Source: a virus
DNA length: 37,731 bases
Strand: one strand, 5' to 3'
Virus record (IMG/VR): IMGVR_UViG_3300036652_000548
Span: 1 to 37,731 of that record
Part shown: in pieces, positions 1 through 37,731 of the stretch
Layout of the letters: each line of letters begins with the position of its first letter
How positions within the stretch are numbered: the stretch's first letter is position 1
Notes under the pieces: generated by a model
Database searches by the model: none
What the model saw: only the letters and a program-made list of their open reading frames with translations
Told to the model about the DNA's origin: nothing
Made by a program: the position numbers and the translations under genes

Positions 1-126
1 AGTGACATTGCAACGACAGGCATAAATGCCCTCCACTCGCTCACTCAATCAGGCATTGAGGCTGGTATGGGTAAGCTACTCAACAAAGCCACTGGTAACG
101 CTGGTCAGTTTGTTGATACTATGCCA
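1..126. repeat. Left copy of contig-end direct repeat
   Basis: Bases 1-126 are identical to 37603-37728. The right copy is followed by three bases (CCC) that do not match 127-129. The repeat lies inside a coding gene and keeps its reading frame, so it looks like the overlap left when a circular or circularly permuted genome is assembled as a line. A true short terminal repeat used in packaging is the alternative, but there is no intergenic packaging site here. Confidence 0.9.
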
Positions 127-5825: not shown

Positions 5826-7598
5826 ATGCAACCAAATCTAAATTTTGCCAATCCACAATCACTTGCCATCGGCGGCAACCCACAACTGGGAGACCCCAAC
5901 ATGTCCGGTCAGAGCCTCACCATACCGAACCCAGAGGGCATCGATATGAGCGAGATGATTACTGAGTGGAACCTCGCTACTGAGTATGTGCGCCTCTATA
6001 CCAAAGACTTCAAATATCTCGACGATCTAGTAGACGGCGTGCCTATCAACCATGACCCAAAGAACCCATTTGTCGGTGACACTACTCTACTCGGTGAAGT
6101 GAAGTCTATCCCGCGCGATAGCCTCCAGCAGCTACCTGTTATCACGATGTCGATTAACGGTACTAAGAACTCGGTTGCGGCTATGCTCTCCACCTATCTG
6201 TTAAAGCACACCGCTTTCAATGAAGATACGTTTGGCAAGGGCCTACTTTCAACACTGCAAATTGGCGCAGAACAGGCACTTAGTCATGGGTATGCACCGT
6301 TTATGGTGGCTACTGGCAGCATGTTTAATAACTTCGGTACGACACTGAAACTACTGCATTACATGGATAACGCACCAGAGCCAGGCATTCAGGACCACAA
6401 CGAAACTGGCTTCGATTATGTCGTCGCTAACCTGACGCCTAGCCGAGTACGAAAAATACTCAAGGCCGCTATGCGAAACCCTAACACGACATGGAATATC
6501 CCAGCGCTGAAGCAAGTACTGGCTAGCACGCCACTCGCCTCGACCTACTCTATGTACGAGGGTGCGGCTCGCATGAACCAGCCAGGCGAGCAGTCAGGAC
6601 CAACCTACCAATTCGTTACTCGTTACGAGACGGGGCCTGACGCTACCATCATCACATTCTGTCCACAGGTATCAGAGGCACCGCTTCGCGTCATGGATAG
6701 CCGCTCTAAATGGGGCTACCCTCGCGTTATTTACCTGGTGATCGACCCAGCAGCTTTGACGCCATTCGGCCAAAGCCGTGTCCGTCTCGCTAGCCCGAAC
6801 GTAAACCTGATGAACATTTATTACGGTCAGATAGCTGCCATGCTCCTGCTTAATAGTAAACCGCCGATCTTTCAGAAAGGCCGCTTCTCGACGCCGGTTG
6901 TTCTTAAGCAGGGGGCGGTCTGGAAAGCTATCGACCCACAGGCAAGTGCCGAACTTAAGAACATGGACAACGGTGCGCTCGAACAGTTCACCCCAATGGC
7001 TGAGTACTTCCAGGCTCAAATTAAAACTGTCATGGGACGACCGTCACCTGGCGGCCCAAGCAGCCCTGGTAGGACTGCCCCTGGCGTTGAAGCCACACAG
7101 CAAGTTCAAGACAACGCTGTTAATCAGGTCACGAAGATACTTGAAAACTTCCTACGCCAGTACGCACTGGTGGCACTCGACACGCTATTATCTGAGCAAG
7201 AGGGCGAAGAAGATATTATCGTCGATGACGACACTAAGAATTCGATCAACGATCTCCGTCCCGGCACTATCGGTGATGATAATAAAATCCACATCGTATG
7301 GGCTGACTTCTATGCCGCTATCGAAACGTGGAGTGCCGAAGTCACTGTTAGCCTTAGCTCCGACCAGATCAACGCTAAGAAGCGTGCTGACCTCCAAGAT
7401 ATGTTGGTTGTACTGGCTCAAAACGCACAGGAGCTTGGACCAGGTGCCGTACAAAAAGTACAAGAGATTACCAACATGCTCTTACAAGATCAGGTACCTC
7501 TCGCGGGCGCACTCCCATCTGGAGGCGCAGCTCCAATGGCACCAGCACAAATGGCTTCTCCACTACCTGTAAACCCAGCTGTCGGCGTAACACAATAA
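5826..7598 (+). CDS. Portal protein
   Basis: 590 aa, with AAGGA nine bases before the ATG. The portal is the dodecameric ring at the head vertex through which DNA enters and leaves. Supporting features are the length, an N-terminal acidic/helical wing, a central region with a PFGQSRVRLASPNVN segment followed by a hydrophobic helix, and a Pro/Gly-rich turn (PSPGGPSSPGRTAPGVEATQ, about residues 401-420) before a long helical C-terminal part. That Pro/Gly stretch followed by helices is typical of podoviral portals. The extreme C-terminus is Ala/Pro/Met-rich. Neighbours are the tail proteins upstream and the scaffold downstream, as expected for a portal. Confidence 0.75.
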   Translation: MQPNLNFANPQSLAIGGNPQLGDPNMSGQSLTIPNPEGIDMSEMITEWNLATEYVRLYTKDFKYLDDLVDGVPINHDPKNPFVGDTTLLGEVKSIPRDSLQQLPVITMSINGTKNSVAAMLSTYLLKHTAFNEDTFGKGLLSTLQIGAEQALSHGYAPFMVATGSMFNNFGTTLKLLHYMDNAPEPGIQDHNETGFDYVVANLTPSRVRKILKAAMRNPNTTWNIPALKQVLASTPLASTYSMYEGAARMNQPGEQSGPTYQFVTRYETGPDATIITFCPQVSEAPLRVMDSRSKWGYPRVIYLVIDPAALTPFGQSRVRLASPNVNLMNIYYGQIAAMLLLNSKPPIFQKGRFSTPVVLKQGAVWKAIDPQASAELKNMDNGALEQFTPMAEYFQAQIKTVMGRPSPGGPSSPGRTAPGVEATQQVQDNAVNQVTKILENFLRQYALVALDTLLSEQEGEEDIIVDDDTKNSINDLRPGTIGDDNKIHIVWADFYAAIETWSAEVTVSLSSDQINAKKRADLQDMLVVLAQNAQELGPGAVQKVQEITNMLLQDQVPLAGALPSGGAAPMAPAQMASPLPVNPAVGVTQ

Positions 7599-9868: not shown

Positions 9869-10186
9869 ATGGCTGACGACAACGAAACAACTACTACAAA
9901 CTCTACTACTGTAAACACTGGTGTAGATACTACTGCTCAAACGCAGGAGAGTGCGCCTAACCCATCTCCAGTAGATGCAGCCCCTAGCACTGACTTGAAC
10001 GCTTCAGGCAGCATTGCTAGCCCTGCTGTGACTGACCCAGCTAACGACATTACAACGAACGACGTTGAACAAACTCAAGAAGATCGCTTCGCTGATGCTC
10101 GCACTACCGCTATGGTCAACCACGCCGCAGCAAACGGTCTGGACGCTGCTAACCAATCTAGCGCTACTGAGGAAGAAATCGCCTAG
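9869..10186 (+). CDS. Acidic Thr/Asn/Ala-rich late protein
   Basis: 105 aa, preceded by an excellent AAAGGAGG site seven bases before the ATG, so it is probably well expressed. It is low complexity (Thr, Asn, Ala, Asp), acidic and probably disordered apart from a short C-terminal helix. No domain recognised; a capsid decoration or internal head role is possible. It is the last gene of this rightward unit. Its stop (10184-10186) interlocks with the terminase stop on the other strand, leaving no space for a terminator. Confidence 0.65.
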   Translation: MADDNETTTTNSTTVNTGVDTTAQTQESAPNPSPVDAAPSTDLNASGSIASPAVTDPANDITTNDVEQTQEDRFADARTTAMVNHAAANGLDAANQSSATEEEIA

Positions 10187-11544
10187 TAGCCAGGGTTCCA
10201 CTGAGCAGCGACATTGATTGTGTCACTCTCATAAGTACTAACTTGAAGATCAGGGCTGTATAAAAACAGTCCTGTTTTTTCATCAAATTCATCTTCAATA
10301 GCCTTGAACATATAGCGATATTGGTCAGCCGCGTGAGAGTTAGAGTTGTGCTCTGGCCCCATATAATCACCAGTCAGGGTGTTAAACTTACGCTTGTAGA
10401 GGCGTAGTTTTCGTATCATGTCTTCAGTGGTAGCCTGATTAAACTCGACCTTTGGCGTGCCGCCTACAGCCCGCTTAATGCCCTCCTCTTTCAGTTCGCG
10501 GCGTAGAAGACTACTATTCGGTAGACCGAGTTGCCTGATCTTTTCGACACGCTCGATAGCATCACTGTCTCGTACCGCGCCGTCATGCGGTAGGAAGTTC
10601 CACATGATGTTATAGGGCTTGCCCTTGATAATCCCAACAGTCTGCTCATAGGCGACGTTGTGTGTCTCGTAATAATCGATCACACGCGGACGCTTGTTGA
10701 TGTACTGCCAGAAGCCGACAGCCAACATGTCGCTCATTCCAAGGTCCCAAGAAGTAAAGCAAGGGAAAGCTGGGTCATAGGGGAAGCGGCCGATATTGCC
10801 ATTTGTGAGTGCCATAGCTAGCCCCGGACCGTAGTAGCTGGTTGCGCTAACCTGGCCCCAGTCACACATGTACTCCTGGCGCCACATGAAATCGTTGCCG
10901 TTTTTAGCAATCGTTTCTTGTCGCAGTTCTTCGAGCAGCTCTTTGCTTAGGTAGCGATCGGCAGTAACGAGACTGGCATACTGTGTCTTTGCTCCCTTGG
11001 TCCAGTTGGCAAGGGCGCGGTCGAATAAAATCTTAAATGTGCCACCAGAGATACCATCGATCTTTGGGGTGGACTGAATGATAACTTGACCACCGTTTAC
11101 CGCTACGATTGGGCGGATAACGTCAAGGGCAGCGCCCGGAATGTCCACGAACTCAGAGAAGATATAGAGCTTGCCGTTAGCACCACGCAGGGCGTCAGGG
11201 TCGGTGGCACCAAGGACCTGGAACGTCGAACCGTTCTTGAGTGTGATACGCATATTATTGTTGTCACGGGAGGCGACCAGGCTTGGCGGTATGTGGTCGA
11301 TAGTCTGCATACCGTCGTTTTCGACGTTGTTCCAGAATGAGTTTTTACCCTGCTCCTTAGTCGGGAACACGAGCACTACGTTCATTGGCTTTTCAACCAT
11401 CTTCTTAACAGCGTACCCAAAGGCAGTAAAGTCCTTGCCTCCACGACGAGACCAACACCAGATTGCTAGCGCTACTCCATTATCAAGTGCCTGCAATGCT
11501 TCAGCTTGATAGTCACGGGGCTCAAAATTTACGGGTATATTCAT
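10183..11544 (-). CDS. terL: Terminase large subunit (DNA-packaging ATPase/nuclease)
   Basis: 453 aa, leftward. It pumps DNA into the prohead at the portal and cuts concatemers. The ATPase has a Walker A variant, WSRRGGKD (residues 31-38), and a Walker B-like YIFSEF in which Ser-Glu (130-131) replaces Asp-Glu, a form known in some terminases. IRPI then VNGGQVI then STPK follow, as in that subfamily. The nuclease part has SWDLG (Asp267), PHDGA (Asp321) and HAADQYRY (Asp407), the expected RNase H-like metal ligands. Length is normal for the family. It starts on the stop of the AP2-domain gene (TAATG). The gene lies antisense to all neighbouring late genes, which is unusual. Confidence 0.92.
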   Translation of the reverse strand: MNIPVNFEPRDYQAEALQALDNGVALAIWCWSRRGGKDFTAFGYAVKKMVEKPMNVVLVFPTKEQGKNSFWNNVENDGMQTIDHIPPSLVASRDNNNMRITLKNGSTFQVLGATDPDALRGANGKLYIFSEFVDIPGAALDVIRPIVAVNGGQVIIQSTPKIDGISGGTFKILFDRALANWTKGAKTQYASLVTADRYLSKELLEELRQETIAKNGNDFMWRQEYMCDWGQVSATSYYGPGLAMALTNGNIGRFPYDPAFPCFTSWDLGMSDMLAVGFWQYINKRPRVIDYYETHNVAYEQTVGIIKGKPYNIMWNFLPHDGAVRDSDAIERVEKIRQLGLPNSSLLRRELKEEGIKRAVGGTPKVEFNQATTEDMIRKLRLYKRKFNTLTGDYMGPEHNSNSHAADQYRYMFKAIEDEFDEKTGLFLYSPDLQVSTYESDTINVAAQWNPGY

Positions 11545-11767: not shown

Positions 11768-11796
11768 ATTATGCCACCCCTTTATGTTGTTGTCTA
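11768..11796 (-). promoter_or_regulatory. Leftward promoter for AP2 gene and terminase
   Basis: On the minus strand: TAGACA (11796-11791), 17 bases, CATAAT (11773-11768), with TG one base before the -10 (extended -10). Each hexamer differs from consensus at one position. Transcription would start near 11761, five bases before the AP2 ATG. Confidence 0.5.
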
Positions 11797-11818
11797 CTAC
11801 CACAGGCATTATTATAAA
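11790..11818 (+). promoter_or_regulatory. Rightward promoter for capsid operon
   Basis: TTGTCT (11790-11795), 17 bases, TATAAA (11813-11818). Its -35 shares five bases with the -35 of the leftward promoter, so the two would compete for polymerase or answer to one regulator. The leader to the capsid ATG is about 50 bases. Confidence 0.45.
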
Positions 11819-11873
11819 GTCAAGAACACTAAAGCTGTTCGATACCAACAAATTAAAGAGAGGGAAACATATC

Positions 11874-12788
11874 ATGGCTTGGAGTTATGGTACAAAGACC
11901 GCGAATATCATGGATATTCCACTGTCTATCTCTAGTGTGGTTACACCATACTTGGGCGACAGCGGATACAAATTCGACGGCGCAAACTCTGTCCGCGTCC
12001 TGAGCGTCGCTGACGGTACATTATCAAACTACGACGAAACTAACGCGAGCACACCATTTGGTGCAGCTACTCTAGTCGTCCCTAACGAGCAAGTTCTTCA
12101 GTTGGCTTACAACAAGAGCATGTTGCTGCGTATTCAGCGTACACAAATTCAGGACATTCCTGTTGGTCAGTTCGCAAAGCAAGTTGCTTTGCAGCAAGCT
12201 AACGATGTCTTCGTTCCTGCACACGACGCTTACTCGCTTGCTAAAATCTGGGCTGCACGTCCTGCTGCTAACATTCAGGCGCTTGACACTACTCACGGTG
12301 GTGCTGGTACTGGTGTATCTGGTTACGTCCTCAGCTTTAGTCAAATGATTAGCAAAGCTCGTACCAACTCTGGTGGTAACACAGCCAACTTGGTTGCATG
12401 GGTTACTTACGGCTTCAAAGACAACGCTGGTGCTCAGATCAACTTCACCGGTTCTGAAGTTGGTTACGCTGCTGGTAAAAACGGCTACCTCGGTAAACTC
12501 GCTGGTGTCCCAACTGTTGAAATCCCTGACGCTTACCTGTTCCCAGGTGTGTTAGCACTCGTTGCTGACAAGCGTGCGATCGTCAACGTCACCCCTAAGA
12601 TGGACCCTAAATCTGGTGGTATGACTATCATCGACCCAGTACCAGGCTTCTCAGGTATCGAAATTCAGCTACGCGACCGTTCAGATACGTTCGTCCTGAA
12701 CAAGAAAGTGAACACTGTTGCTTCACTTGAAAACGCTGCAACCACTACGGCCAGCACAACTGCTACAACTGTAACCGCTGGCGCCTAG
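11874..12788 (+). CDS. Major capsid protein (probable)
   Basis: 304 aa. I chose the ATG at 11874, seven bases after AGAGAGGG, rather than an in-frame start at 11784 that would lie inside the promoter. Length suits a major capsid protein. Codons favour GGT, GCT, CGT and AAC forms, as in very highly expressed genes. Sequence features are a predicted helix with LLRIQRTQIQDIPVGQFAKQ (about residues 84-103), ADKRAIVNVTPK near the C-terminal third and a Thr/Ala-rich tail of 20 residues. The N-terminus (AWSYGTKTANIMDIP) looks flexible. No other gene in the window fits the role. The exact capsid family cannot be named from the sequence alone. Confidence 0.7.
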   Translation: MAWSYGTKTANIMDIPLSISSVVTPYLGDSGYKFDGANSVRVLSVADGTLSNYDETNASTPFGAATLVVPNEQVLQLAYNKSMLLRIQRTQIQDIPVGQFAKQVALQQANDVFVPAHDAYSLAKIWAARPAANIQALDTTHGGAGTGVSGYVLSFSQMISKARTNSGGNTANLVAWVTYGFKDNAGAQINFTGSEVGYAAGKNGYLGKLAGVPTVEIPDAYLFPGVLALVADKRAIVNVTPKMDPKSGGMTIIDPVPGFSGIEIQLRDRSDTFVLNKKVNTVASLENAATTTASTTATTVTAGA

Positions 12789-12805: not shown

Positions 12806-13687
12806 GTGAAAGTAATATTGGCGCAGCCCTCTATCCCTCGGTTTAGCTGGGAGTTAGAGGTGCTGCTCACCAATATTCGGCAGTTCAGTGACATAGAAGT
12901 AGTCTTGCTATTTAGCAAGCCTCAAAATCACGATAGCTCCGTACCCCGCTACTTAGTTGATAAGTACCCCGGAGTGCGGGCTTTCGTCTATGAAGACAAC
13001 CGGTGGGACAAGTCCTACATACCATCAATTCGTCCGTACCTGTGGTGGCAATATCTAAAGGGCCACCCAGAGCGAGAAAACGAAACGTACTTTTATATCG
13101 ACAGTGATGTGATATTCCGCGAGTGGCCTGATCTCGATAGTCTCAACGTAGACGCGAAGCACTGGGTTGGCTCTAACTGTGACAGCTATATCGGTTACGA
13201 CTACATTAAGCAGACTGGGCGCGGCCCAGAGATCGTCAGCCGCATGGCCCGTCATTGTGGTATTACCGAACAACAGATGATCGGCGTACCGGGCATTGGT
13301 GCTCACCTCGTGATCGCTAATCCAACTGCTGAGATATGGGAGAAATCCTACCACCGCAGCAATGCGCTCTGGCATTACCTCGACGGGGTAAATAGCAATA
13401 TCCAGAAATGGACGGCGGAAATGTGGGCACAACTCTGGACGTGGGTAGAGCAAGGTATCACGCTCGATATGCCTAAAGAGTTAGACTTTTGTATGGTTAC
13501 TGACCAGCTCAAGCGCTGGGACGAAACGAAAATATTACATAACTCTGGCGTTACCGAAGACACCGGGCAATTGTTCTTTAAGGGGAAATACCACGACCAC
13601 ACCCCATTTGGAGAGGACTTCAGCTGGGTCGATCAAACGAAGTGTTCACGTAAGTATGTAGAAGCGATAGAAAAAGTGATACGATAA
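12806..13687 (+). CDS. Glycosyltransferase-like protein (GT-A type)
   Basis: 293 aa, GTG start, with AGGA about 10 bases upstream. It begins with a Rossmann-like strand (MKVILAQPSIPRF) and has a nucleotide-sugar/metal motif Y-I-D-S-D-V (Asp99 and Asp101, DxD), typical of GT-A transferases. Aromatic-rich segments such as YLWWQYLKG precede it. It lacks membrane segments, so it should act in the cytoplasm. It sits directly after the capsid and before the fibre genes, so plausible substrates are virion proteins or host cell-wall polymers. DNA modification is less likely without accompanying base-modification genes. Family membership is from motif and length. Confidence 0.65.
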   Translation: MKVILAQPSIPRFSWELEVLLTNIRQFSDIEVVLLFSKPQNHDSSVPRYLVDKYPGVRAFVYEDNRWDKSYIPSIRPYLWWQYLKGHPERENETYFYIDSDVIFREWPDLDSLNVDAKHWVGSNCDSYIGYDYIKQTGRGPEIVSRMARHCGITEQQMIGVPGIGAHLVIANPTAEIWEKSYHRSNALWHYLDGVNSNIQKWTAEMWAQLWTWVEQGITLDMPKELDFCMVTDQLKRWDETKILHNSGVTEDTGQLFFKGKYHDHTPFGEDFSWVDQTKCSRKYVEAIEKVIR

Positions 13688-24269: not shown

Positions 24270-24298
24270 ATTGTCGCACGTTCTGCCAAACAATGCAA
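24270..24298 (-). promoter_or_regulatory. Internal leftward promoter carrying AWTGCAACAC motif
   Basis: Minus strand: TTGCAT (24298-24293), 17 bases, GACAAT (24275-24270). The -35 lies inside copy 2 of the AWTGCAACAC motif (24292-24301). Start near 24263; it would express the microprotein, RHH protein and the recombination genes. Confidence 0.45.
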
Positions 24299-24309
24299 CA
24301 CTTATTTTT

Positions 24310-24381
24310 TTAATCGTCTATGCCCTCCTCGACCAAGCCTTGACAGCGTGGGCAAGGGCAGCTACCGTTTGGGTTCATCAT
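24310..24381 (-). CDS. Cys-rich microprotein, 23 aa
   Basis: 23 aa beginning on the stop of the upstream gene (TAATG). It contains CPCPRCQG, a Cys-x-Cys-x-x-Cys cluster able to bind a metal ion, and an acidic tail. Very short, so the call rests on overlap with its neighbour, a GGGAGGGG ribosome site and the Cys pattern. Confidence 0.4.
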   Translation of the reverse strand: MMNPNGSCPCPRCQGLVEEGIDD

Positions 24382-29226: not shown

Positions 29227-29255
29227 ATACTAGTTAATCACACATTGCAACACAA
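29227..29255 (-). promoter_or_regulatory. Possible early leftward promoter
   Basis: Minus strand: TTGTGT (29255-29250), 17 bases, TAGTAT (29232-29227), overlapping motif copies 4 and 5. Weak match, but some promoter is needed here for the leftward early operon starting at 29137. Confidence 0.3.
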
Positions 29256-29263
29256 TGCAACAC
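29244..29263. repeat. AWTGCAACAC motif, tandem copies 4 and 5
   Basis: ATTGCAACAC at 29244-29253 followed directly by AATGCAACAC at 29254-29263, a 10-base direct repeat upstream of the leftward early operon. A tandem pair suggests cooperative binding by a regulator. Confidence 0.6.
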
Positions 29264-29316
29264 TATTTATTGATATTGTGTAACATTGTGATGCTTTTAG
29301 GGGTTATTTTGAAATA

Positions 29317-29519
29317 TGTATACAGTTACACCCCCCAAAATAACAGATGTGTATACAGTGTATACAGTTTGCCACCTATGCAATGTAATAGATAATTGAC
29401 ACAGAGCCCTAGAGCTAACAGAGGTAGCTAGCCATAAAAAAAGACGCGTTTATATTAAAGAAGTCAAACTGTATACATGTATACGACCTCTGTTGCAAAA
29501 AAGTTTGAAACTGTATACA
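29317..29519. repeat. TGTATACAGTTT iteron/operator array
   Basis: Three direct copies (GTATAC cores at 29318, 29351 and 29360; ends AGTTA, AGTGT, AGTTT) and, about 110 bases on, two inverted copies AAACTGTATACA (cores at 29471 and 29513), plus a partial copy at 29479. The inward-facing arrangement lies between the leftward and rightward early promoters, as expected for operators of the XRE protein or origin iterons. Confidence 0.65.
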
Positions 29520-29538
29520 TGCTGTGGAAAACTACATT

Positions 29539-33872: not shown

Positions 33873-34018
33873 AGTTTAAGGCTAGCGAAAGCGCACCGTA
33901 CCGTCCCGGACAGAAAGAAACCCTCGAATTCTTAGGGCGACATAACCGCTTCGTCTATACGGCTTATCCTGAAAATTGGCCGTCTGTAAAATCGCACTTG
34001 TTAAGTAATTTCTTTTAG
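33731..34018 (+). CDS. VRR-NUC nuclease
   Basis: 95 aa. A minimal PD-(D/E)xK nuclease: Glu7 in EREAVKWLKDQG, CPDRTIL (Asp35), IIEFK (Glu48, Lys50), then RPGQKETLEFL with Gln61. This is the standard single-domain phage VRR-NUC, a structure-specific nuclease that may resolve junctions or trim packaged DNA. It lies at the end of the early rightward genes and just before the late promoter. Confidence 0.85.
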   Translation: MEKKLEREAVKWLKDQGAYVIKNRAGPGVPTACPDRTILYRDKWAIIEFKASESAPYRPGQKETLEFLGRHNRFVYTAYPENWPSVKSHLLSNFF

Positions 34019-34026
34019 CATATTAT
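33998..34026 (+). promoter_or_regulatory. Late promoter of the structural operon
   Basis: TTGTTA (33998-34003), 17 bases, TATTAT (34021-34026), partly over the end of the VRR-NUC gene. Start near 34033. It leads into a 90-base structured leader and the late genes that continue across the contig join. Confidence 0.5.
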
Positions 34027-34123
34027 TAGGGTATAAACCTAACGGTTCCTTGAAAAGTCGGAGATGTGAAGCAGGCACACACCCCCGAAAATAGGGGCCG
34101 ACAATGAGAGAGGGAACACTTCA
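34026..34123 (+). promoter_or_regulatory. Structured 5' leader of late operon
   Basis: Nested pairings: TTAGG (34026-34030) with CCTAA (34038-34042); GTTCCT (34045-34050) with GGGAAC (34112-34117); inside it GTCGG (34057-34061) with CCGAC (34098-34102); inside that two hairpins, TGTG/CACA (34065-34068, 34076-34079) and CCCC/GGGG (34083-34086, 34094-34097). The outer stem covers part of the Shine-Dalgarno sequence (GAGAGAGGG, 34106-34114), so folding could control translation. No known riboswitch recognised. Confidence 0.5.
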
Positions 34124-34309
34124 ATGGCTGCACAGCAAAACACAAAGAAACCCGTTAGCGCAAAAGCTGCAATGGCAGTTGCTAACATGCTCAAAAAAGG
34201 TGGCGCGAAAGCACCTGCACCAAAAAAAGCTCCTGTTAATACTACTTCGGCGGCTGCACCTGACGCTGAAGATGCTATTGACGGTGGCGCTGACGAAGCA
34301 CAGGAGTAG
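34124..34309 (+). CDS. Small Ala/Lys-rich late protein
   Basis: 61 aa, first gene of the late unit. The N-terminal half is basic (KKPVSAKAAMAVANMLKKGG) and the C-terminal half acidic, with a Pro/Ala hinge. Such small charged proteins are often internal virion components. No family recognised. Expression would be subject to the structured leader just upstream. Confidence 0.6.
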   Translation: MAAQQNTKKPVSAKAAMAVANMLKKGGAKAPAPKKAPVNTTSAAAPDAEDAIDGGADEAQE

Positions 34310-35436: not shown

Positions 35437-37731
35437 ATGGACCTTGGCGGTTTTCTTGGTAATATCTTCCACTCCATAGGGGGTTTTTTCGGGGGAGGTA
35501 ATAACCAAAACCAGAATAATAATCAACCCCACAACAATCCGGGGCCAATTACTATCAATCAAAATTCGACGGGACCTACGGCTGGACCGAGTTTTAATGT
35601 CAACCAAAACCAAAATTCAAACCTAAATCCATTCTTCCTCCAAAAACCTCAACAAAACCAACAACCTCAACAACCTCAACAGCCACAGCAGCCGCAGGCC
35701 CCGTCATTGAACTTATACCAAGGTCCGACCCATACTCCAGCTCTTACCGTTGCGAGCAGCCCTAGTGCAAATACTAATCAGAACTCAGCACCGTTAAAAG
35801 TTGTGGGCGCTTCGCCTACACCATCACAGCCTGATAATGGCAGTAATCCACTACTAGATTTCGGTAAATCTCTCGTTAAGGCCCCAGTTCAGTTTTTGAA
35901 CCAAGCTGGTAGCGAACTTGCCAACGTCGGCATCACCGGTAAGACTGAGTACGATCTACTCACACACGCCGACCAAAATACGATCAATAACGACTTCGCA
36001 ATGGAAAAATCTGGCAATGACGCCTACAACAAGAACTCTGGCGGCCTATTAAATATGGGTACGATTACCAGTGCTGACGAAGCTAAGAACCCGGATATTG
36101 GTAAGACTGCCGCAGAATTTGGTGGTAATTTTCTTCAGAACACCGCGCTGGTTGGAACAGGCGGTATTGATGGGTTGGCTGAGGGTGCGGCCGCGAAAGT
36201 GCTTCCTGAAGCTGCTAATGTAGGTGGTAAAATTATCGCAAATATCTTGCCAAAAGCCGTCACTGGTGCAACAGTTGGCGGTACAATGGGCGGCGGCCAA
36301 GCCCTTGAGGACGGCACTAATATCGGTCAGGGTATCGCTACGGGTGCTGGGACGGGTGCAGTTGCCGGTCCAATTATCGGTAACGCTGTTAGCGGCGCCT
36401 CACAACTTCTCCGTAAAGCCATACCAGGAATTGTTGACATGTTTAAGGGCGGACCTAGCGACGTTACTGACGGCAGCATGAATACAGCAACCGACGCTAA
36501 AGTAGCCAATGGGGTACAACAGCCTGACGAGATCGAGCCAGGCATTAAATCAGTGAACCCAACTCAGGGCGCTGACGCACTAGCAGCTATCCAGCAGAAA
36601 GAGGCAGAGCAGCTTGGTACTAATCCACAACCCGCCGCTTCAGGTGAGCAAGTTCAACCTGCCAATAGTAACCCACAATCTCAAGGCCCTGCACCAGCAG
36701 ATATACAGCCTGCTACTGGAAACCCACAGGAAACCGCACCAGCAACACCTCAAAATGAAACACAAACGCCTAACGAACAGCCAGCACAGCCAACCAACCC
36801 ATCAGGTAATCCAACCGCTCCCAACGCTCCAAATATTCGCGCACAGGCTCAAAAAGACCTCGAAAGCATTGGCGGTGAGGTTGATAAGCAAACCTCCAAA
36901 GAGATCGGTAGCGCGAAAGAGCATGACGTTCTCAGCAACGATCAGCTAAACGAAGCTGCCAACCGCTACACGCAGAGCATGTCCGATGACGAGCTAAAAG
37001 CTTCCGTCCAAGGCGGTATGACCGTTAATGGCGCTGGTGACATTGCCAAGGCTTACTCTATCGTTACTCGCTTAGGCAAGATGGCCGCTAATGGTGACGA
37101 GGAGGCTAAGGCCCTTATTCCAAAGATTTTAGACAGTGTTGAACAGCATGTCTCTGGTTCAGGTCGCTCACTCAACTACACCGGCTCTATGCTTGACAGC
37201 CTGCCAAAAGAGGCCCAGCTTGAATACATTGTTAAAGACATCAATAAAACCCGCGCCTCGGCTGGTCTCGACCCACTGAGCGACGAGGAGGAGCTAAACG
37301 CTCGTTCTACCCTAACGAAGTTCTTAACCGAGATCGAGCAGAAGCAAGACGCTGCTGCCGGTGCCAAGGGGTCAATCGACGAAATTATGCAGCGAGCCGA
37401 GCAGGGACAAGCTACCCCCGATGAGCTCAAGCAAATCTCTGACTACCAGAAAGTTGCCGAGCAAAATACCCGTGAAGCTAACCAGCTTAAAACGCAGGTT
37501 GGCAAGACATACTCTGAACTCGCTCCGCAAAAGGGCGACTTCGCTAAAACTGCTGGTGACTACGCAAGGTCATCAATGCTTACTAAGGTTACGGGCCGAT
37601 TAAGTGACATTGCAACGACAGGCATAAATGCCCTCCACTCGCTCACTCAATCAGGCATTGAGGCTGGTATGGGTAAGCTACTCAACAAAGCCACTGGTAA
37701 CGCTGGTCAGTTTGTTGATACTATGCCACCC
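35437..37731 (+). CDS. Giant internal virion protein (N-terminal part; continues at base 1)
   Basis: Open from ATG 35437 to the contig end; 722 residues up to 37602, then continuing in frame at base 1 for a total of 1669. A run of G (GGGGG) lies about nine bases before the ATG. Residues 1-22 are Gly/Phe-rich amphipathic (MDLGGFLGNIFHSIGGFFGG); 23-90 Asn/Gln/Pro-rich; 225-325 Gly/Ala hydrophobic, membrane-prone; 360-470 Pro/Gln/Asn linker; 480-720 helical. The C-terminal lytic domain is in the other part (see 1-2844). An N-terminal membrane-active segment with a distant lytic domain suits a protein ejected into the cell envelope before DNA. Confidence 0.85.
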   Translation, partial: MDLGGFLGNIFHSIGGFFGGGNNQNQNNNQPHNNPGPITINQNSTGPTAGPSFNVNQNQNSNLNPFFLQKPQQNQQPQQPQQPQQPQAPSLNLYQGPTHTPALTVASSPSANTNQNSAPLKVVGASPTPSQPDNGSNPLLDFGKSLVKAPVQFLNQAGSELANVGITGKTEYDLLTHADQNTINNDFAMEKSGNDAYNKNSGGLLNMGTITSADEAKNPDIGKTAAEFGGNFLQNTALVGTGGIDGLAEGAAAKVLPEAANVGGKIIANILPKAVTGATVGGTMGGGQALEDGTNIGQGIATGAGTGAVAGPIIGNAVSGASQLLRKAIPGIVDMFKGGPSDVTDGSMNTATDAKVANGVQQPDEIEPGIKSVNPTQGADALAAIQQKEAEQLGTNPQPAASGEQVQPANSNPQSQGPAPADIQPATGNPQETAPATPQNETQTPNEQPAQPTNPSGNPTAPNAPNIRAQAQKDLESIGGEVDKQTSKEIGSAKEHDVLSNDQLNEAANRYTQSMSDDELKASVQGGMTVNGAGDIAKAYSIVTRLGKMAANGDEEAKALIPKILDSVEQHVSGSGRSLNYTGSMLDSLPKEAQLEYIVKDINKTRASAGLDPLSDEEELNARSTLTKFLTEIEQKQDAAAGAKGSIDEIMQRAEQGQATPDELKQISDYQKVAEQNTREANQLKTQVGKTYSELAPQKGDFAKTAGDYARSSMLTKVTGRLSDIATTGINALHSLTQSGIEAGMGKLLNKATGNAGQFVDTMPP
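37603..37728. repeat. Right copy of contig-end direct repeat
   Basis: Identical to bases 1-126; the following CCC does not match. See the left copy. Confidence 0.9.

Follow-up and report, generated by a model that had tools for sequence, protein, structure and literature searches.

The 37,731-nucleotide window that we analyzed is the entire 37.7-kb IMG/VR virus record IMGVR_UViG_3300036652_000548, a phage for which a metagenome is the sole source. The stretch that leads from a sigma-70-like promoter to the start codon of one of its late transcription units encodes, on the plus strand, a structured leader RNA (34041–34120, described by our covariance model R2), which folds into a three-way junction with one stem nested within another (34045–34117). 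Its folding, conservation and consensus fold make this a well-supported instance of a real, conserved and lineage-restricted folded RNA. Building on that fold, we infer a regulatory effect and its direction, positing that the leader might act in cis as a 5′ RNA that adjusts translation initiation of the 61-amino-acid first gene, a proposal for which we consider the chances about evenly balanced.

The promoter (33998–34026) comprises a −35 element TTGTTA (33998–34003), a spacer of 17 nucleotides and a −10 element TATTAT (34021–34026), with the −35 element falling within the end of the upstream coding sequence. The outer stem of the leader (P1a) has seven base pairs, including one U-G, and is formed by a 5′ arm GUUCCUU (34045–34051), which resembles an anti-Shine-Dalgarno sequence, and a 3′ arm AGGGAAC (34111–34117), which covers part of the Shine-Dalgarno (SD) region AGAGAGG (34107–34113) of the first gene. 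The inner stem (P1b) pairs GUCGG (34057–34061) with CCGAC (34098–34102) and encloses two hairpins. The first of these, P2 (34065–34079), has the form UGUG-AAGCAGG-CACA with its stem at 34065–34068/34076–34079, or alternatively with the 3′ arm at 34078–34081. The second, P3 (34083–34097), has the form CCCC-GAAAAUA-GGGG with its stem at 34083–34086/34094–34097. The preliminary description of this DNA, made from the letters alone, had correctly placed the −35/−10 pair, both stems and both hairpins, and its claim that the outer stem overlaps part of the ribosome site likewise holds, the actual stem having seven base pairs against the six that it gave.

Folding of positions 34027–34123 yields a z-score of −2.23, with 4 of 200 shuffles being equally good. 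When 34042–34120 is excised, the three-way junction is both the minimum free energy (MFE) and the centroid structure (−22.3 kcal/mol, z −1.94), and the inner junction alone reaches −15.2 kcal/mol (z −2.52). Taken by itself, the window sequence would make a moderate case for the predicted fold. The stronger evidence comes from two relatives that carry the element at the same place, namely locus L003 on the syntenic contig G002 (mean identity 76%) and locus L004 on contig G003 (mean identity 71%). In both, the promoter spacing is kept, with TAACAT as the −10 element in L004. The junction is the MFE structure in L003 (z −3.1 to −3.5) as well as in L004 (z −1.1 to −2.3), so that the single-sequence z-scores across the window and its two relatives span −1.1 to −3.5. 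The consensus fold of the three sequences has an energy of −15.9 kcal/mol, where column-shuffled alignments reach −6.5 to −7.6 kcal/mol (z −3.1 to −4.0; one or two of 500 as good), and a hand alignment gives −14.5 against −6.1 kcal/mol (z −3.6). As the relatives share the junction as their MFE structure and the consensus surpasses the shuffles, we regard the fold as real.

The primary sequence is also conserved: the leader is 94% identical to that of G002, compared with the genome mean of 76%, a level attained by 1.1% of 80-base windows. Moreover, the 80-nucleotide window from 34012, which takes in the promoter and the leader and is nearly all noncoding, ranks fourth genome-wide in its conservation against G002. 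The P2 loop, AAGCAGGC, is invariant across all three relatives. The more distant L004 keeps the shape with changes in each part: in P1b the G57-C102 pair is replaced by A-U in a compensatory change and the stem gains an additional U-A pair; in P2 four pairs are retained with the end pair flipped and the register slipped; and in P3 one pair is lost while another is gained. Among random mutants of the window sequence at the distance of L004, 1.5% retain the shape as well as the energy, or 10.6% if the mutations are confined to the truly changed sites. With three distinct sequences, the apparent covariation is suggestive. The preliminary description had staked the leader on covariation in homologues and on a fold better than shuffled sequence, and the comparison yields both a compensatory change and a consensus fold surpassing the shuffles.

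The leader appears to be restricted to this lineage. We searched for homologues by scanning the proteins of viral contigs with the product of a 372-amino-acid gene and the terminase (each alone and as a profile) and with the nuclease gene, and further by using leader DNA patterns, a profile scan of genome contigs and a search of 50 whole records with model R2. Across all of these, the same three contigs alone carry the leader; beyond this lineage, it was not found among viral contigs, in GTDB genomes or in the 50 whole records, most of which have related terminases. No second copy was found within the genome, and no similar DNA in a phage collection. Rfam 15 yields no match at the gathering threshold in the window, and permissive Rfam searches return chance-level matches only (with E-values as high as 10 admitted for the leader and 3 for the loci of the relatives), in agreement with the initial impression that no known family is involved. 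The leader is ordinary in kind and new as a sequence family. Comparative genomics has previously uncovered conserved structured RNAs in phages, such as the cyanophage motifs manA, wcaG and PhotoRC-II, several of which lie in potential 5′ UTRs (untranslated regions; PMC2864571). The genes behind those motifs are host-type metabolic or photosynthesis genes, whereas the leader described here, which matches no Rfam model, precedes structural genes.

The extent of the control that the leader could exert is set by its transcription unit. We treated the genome as circular because of a direct terminal repeat of 126 bases (window 1–126 and 37603–37728) and because contig G001 spans the record-end junction, so that a complete or circularly permuted genome is probable. 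The plus-strand genes starting at 34124 run past the record end and through the portal gene (5826–7598) up to 10186, after which comes a strong, textbook-like intrinsic plus-strand terminator (10251–10280), with a stem at 10251–10274 followed by T6 (z −4.8). This terminator is conserved in G002, with stem changes from A-U to C-G (compensatory) and from G-U to A-U. The unit headed by the leader is therefore about 13.8 kb long and includes the portal gene; a pattern scan found no strong internal plus-strand terminator within it. The next plus-strand block has a late promoter of its own (TTGTTG-17-TATTAT, 11787–11815) and its own AGAGAGGGAA ribosome site (11857–11876), which is identical in both late units, and its leader is unstructured (z +0.59). 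The promoter pattern TTGTT-N18-TATTAT has just two perfect matches in the genome, at the two late promoters, and AGAGAGGRAA-N7-ATG likewise occurs at two sites only, before the first gene (34124) and the gene at 11875. Hence, there are at least two late units, one of which begins with the leader, and the leader is no master switch over the late genes as a whole. The proposal that it gates the whole late operon fails accordingly, and the idea that it helps polymerase to read through one very long late unit is not supported, since the unit ends at 10251–10280 with no strong internal terminator to pass.

Ribosome-site-sequestering leaders are known in phages from T4 e, soc, 49 and I-TevI and from Aeh1 mobE (PMC3014915), and, as in these, a helix in the mRNA leader here includes the SD region of the downstream gene (34111–34117 overlaps AGAGAGG). 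The T4-type inhibitory structures are helices sequestering the SD or the AUG (PMC3014915), whereas in the present case the outer stem encloses a three-way junction that is conserved and has an invariant loop. The 5′ arm of the outer stem is GUUCCUU in the window, UUCCCUU in L003 and UCCUU in L004, in slipped register; despite this drift and a one-base deletion, its complementarity to AGAGAGG is kept in all three. The predicted probability that the GAGG core is unpaired is 0.11 in the window, 0.02 in L003 and 0.18 in L004. At the second unit, the ribosome site at 11857 shows no sequestering structure, and AGAGAG is unpaired with a probability of 0.78 there versus 0.51 at the leader. Because of the kept SD complementarity, the mostly paired GAGG core and the more open site of the second unit, we favor a role in tuning translation. 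Under this proposal, closure of the outer stem would limit ribosome access and so set or adjust initiation of the first gene, and genes coupled to the first gene would be adjusted along with it. The conserved junction and P2 loop would constitute a folding platform, and might additionally be a binding site for a candidate phage or host protein that holds the stem closed or opens it.

Several results weigh against this proposal and the fold beneath it. In the full leader of the window, the MFE structure instead pairs CGGUUCCU with AGGGGCCG, the alternative helix joining 34043–34050 to 34093–34100, at −23.4 kcal/mol as against −22.3 kcal/mol for the junction, which makes up 12–31% of the model ensemble depending on the transcript start; the outer stem of the window has a model probability of about 24%, compared with 59% for the alternative fold. 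Pair counts do not reach significance on an alignment of three distinct sequences, and they were made with a structure that was one base out of register along its 3′ side. In the window, occlusion of the ribosome site does not clearly exceed chance, 27% of shuffled leaders being equally occluded; L003 (1.3%) and L004 (5.3%) are unusual in this respect. Other starts in the phage are also more occluded than that of the first gene, which does not rank with the highest. The alternative fold has a share of about 0% in one relative, L003, and of 5% in the other, L004; being slightly better in the window and minor in the relatives, it is not a conserved feature, and hence we claim no two-state switch. 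Two other devices were likewise discarded. A leader peptide or attenuator could be read in the window as a GTG frame that opens at 34066 and stops at 34105–34107; on reading the relatives, the loss of two bases interrupts this frame in L003, and L004 has an altered version of it. Base pairing between the P2 loop and the first codons is, by eye, perfect over seven nucleotides in L003, has one mismatch in the window and is poor in L004, and is thus not conserved.

Of the competing explanations, one that we judge unlikely, though deserving of attention, is that the fold is a passive 5′ cap, whose stability shields the long structural mRNA from 5′-end-dependent decay, with the overlap with the ribosome site being incidental. 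The expected start site does lie about 10 nucleotides from the beginning of the fold, the mRNA behind it is about 13.8 kb long, and the weak occlusion of the ribosome site in the window fits such a role. However, a cap needs neither an invariant loop nor complementarity to the SD, and the sister unit at 11787 does without any such cap.

To an equal and similarly small degree, we entertain the possibility that the junction serves as the operator of an RNA-binding protein made by the phage, i.e., an autogenous or cross-unit translational repressor comparable to T4 gp43 or RegA. Conservation within the leader is highest at the P2 loop and the junction, and a location beside the ribosome site is typical of such operators. 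The RNA operator of T4 gene 43 is protein-bound and similarly lies near the start codon, over the ribosome site and beside a phage gene (PMC3014915), but its shape differs and the binding protein in our case is putative. One candidate is the basic product of the first gene itself (34124–34309, plus strand, ATG at 34124), a 61-residue protein with a lysine/alanine-rich start and an acidic end, which is 81% and 62% identical to the versions of its two relatives. The lysine-rich start would suit RNA binding, but the protein has no family match and no recognizable domain. A more elaborate version, which we consider somewhat less probable again, is that the leader founds a new lineage-specific family of regulatory RNAs, wherein the junction and the AAGCAGGC loop would bind a phage protein reporting the stage of infection, and thereby set the expression of the portal unit relative to the second unit.

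A further step down in likelihood is a silencer of read-through transcripts in the manner of T4 gene e, such that early transcripts from the primase genes would fold here and leave the late gene untranslated, while late ones would start so as to avoid the fold. With no terminator visible between the stop codon of the upstream nuclease gene (34016–34018) and the leader, read-through is plausible. The T4 late transcript, however, lacks the 5′ strand of the stem (PMC3014915), whereas the visible promoter at 33998–34026 lies upstream of the whole 5′ arm and retains both strands, and a pattern scan found no promoter inside the leader. Slightly less probable still, we believe, is that the conserved block works as DNA, be it an operator, an origin or a packaging site, with the RNA fold as a by-product. 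The conservation is unbroken from the promoter into the leader, and the consensus fold of the reverse strand also surpasses its shuffles (z −2.2 to −2.7); yet, it is weaker than that of the transcript strand, the changes preserve pairing at the RNA level, U-G pairs among it, and a ribosome site marks the end of the block.

The two remaining options, both raised in the preliminary description, fare worst. We consider it very improbable that the leader is a put-like RNA antiterminator modifying RNA polymerase for the late unit. Like the putRNA of phage HK022, it is a promoter-proximal, phage-borne leader of about 70–80 nucleotides (about 75 here). However, HK022 put comprises a pair of long stem-loops and a triplex, is found on early transcripts and has polymerase as its target (PMC9378689), while the present leader forms an enclosed three-way junction, heads a late unit and includes a ribosome site. 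Neither two long adjacent stem-loops nor, by pattern scan, downstream terminators needing read-through were found, and antitermination need not be invoked since the unit has no strong internal terminator and is closed by an intact, conserved one. A metabolite riboswitch or self-cleaving ribozyme is the least probable of all, for three-way junctions occur in both kinds but no tool result indicates either, there is no Rfam match even at permissive thresholds, and the element is limited to one phage lineage, where it stands before structural genes.

The surrounding genome shows several additional features. The nuclease gene upstream of the leader matches PHROG 93 ("endonuclease"), and we take it to be of the VRR-NUC type. 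An open reading frame beginning at 35437, open at its 3′ end, continues in frame across the record end into one ending at 2844, together coding for a protein of about 1670 amino acids. The large terminase subunit is encoded on the minus strand (10183–11544), with plus-strand structural genes on both sides, and the 3′ end of its gene contains the opposite-strand terminator. The gene at about 11875, which opens the next plus-strand block, has a weak PHROG match to "major head protein". The product of the gene at 12806–13687 is 47–55% identical, over nearly its full length, to proteins from Lactobacillus, Enterococcus, Staphylococcus and Lactococcus phages, which are hypothetical proteins or neighbors of major tail genes; the terminase is merely about 30% identical to those of mostly proteobacterial phages. 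By these sequence affinities, the genome looks to be a mosaic of distant origins. The intergenic region between the divergent early blocks (29300–29530) contains repeated GTATAC-type palindromes, e.g., tgtatacagtgtatacag and ctgtatacatgtatacg, which are likely operators or an origin. Additionally, a 37-base direct repeat around CAATGCAACACT is present in two copies that are 73% identical (24284–24320 and 29246–29282), and is possibly a regulatory site.

The leader thus yields one covariance model for an RNA element missing from Rfam, which is so far confined to one small metagenomic phage lineage. If the proposed mechanism is true, a folded RNA placed before only one of two units that share a promoter type and a ribosome site would help dose the parts of the virion, and the pair of units would constitute a compact natural experiment in structural-gene output.
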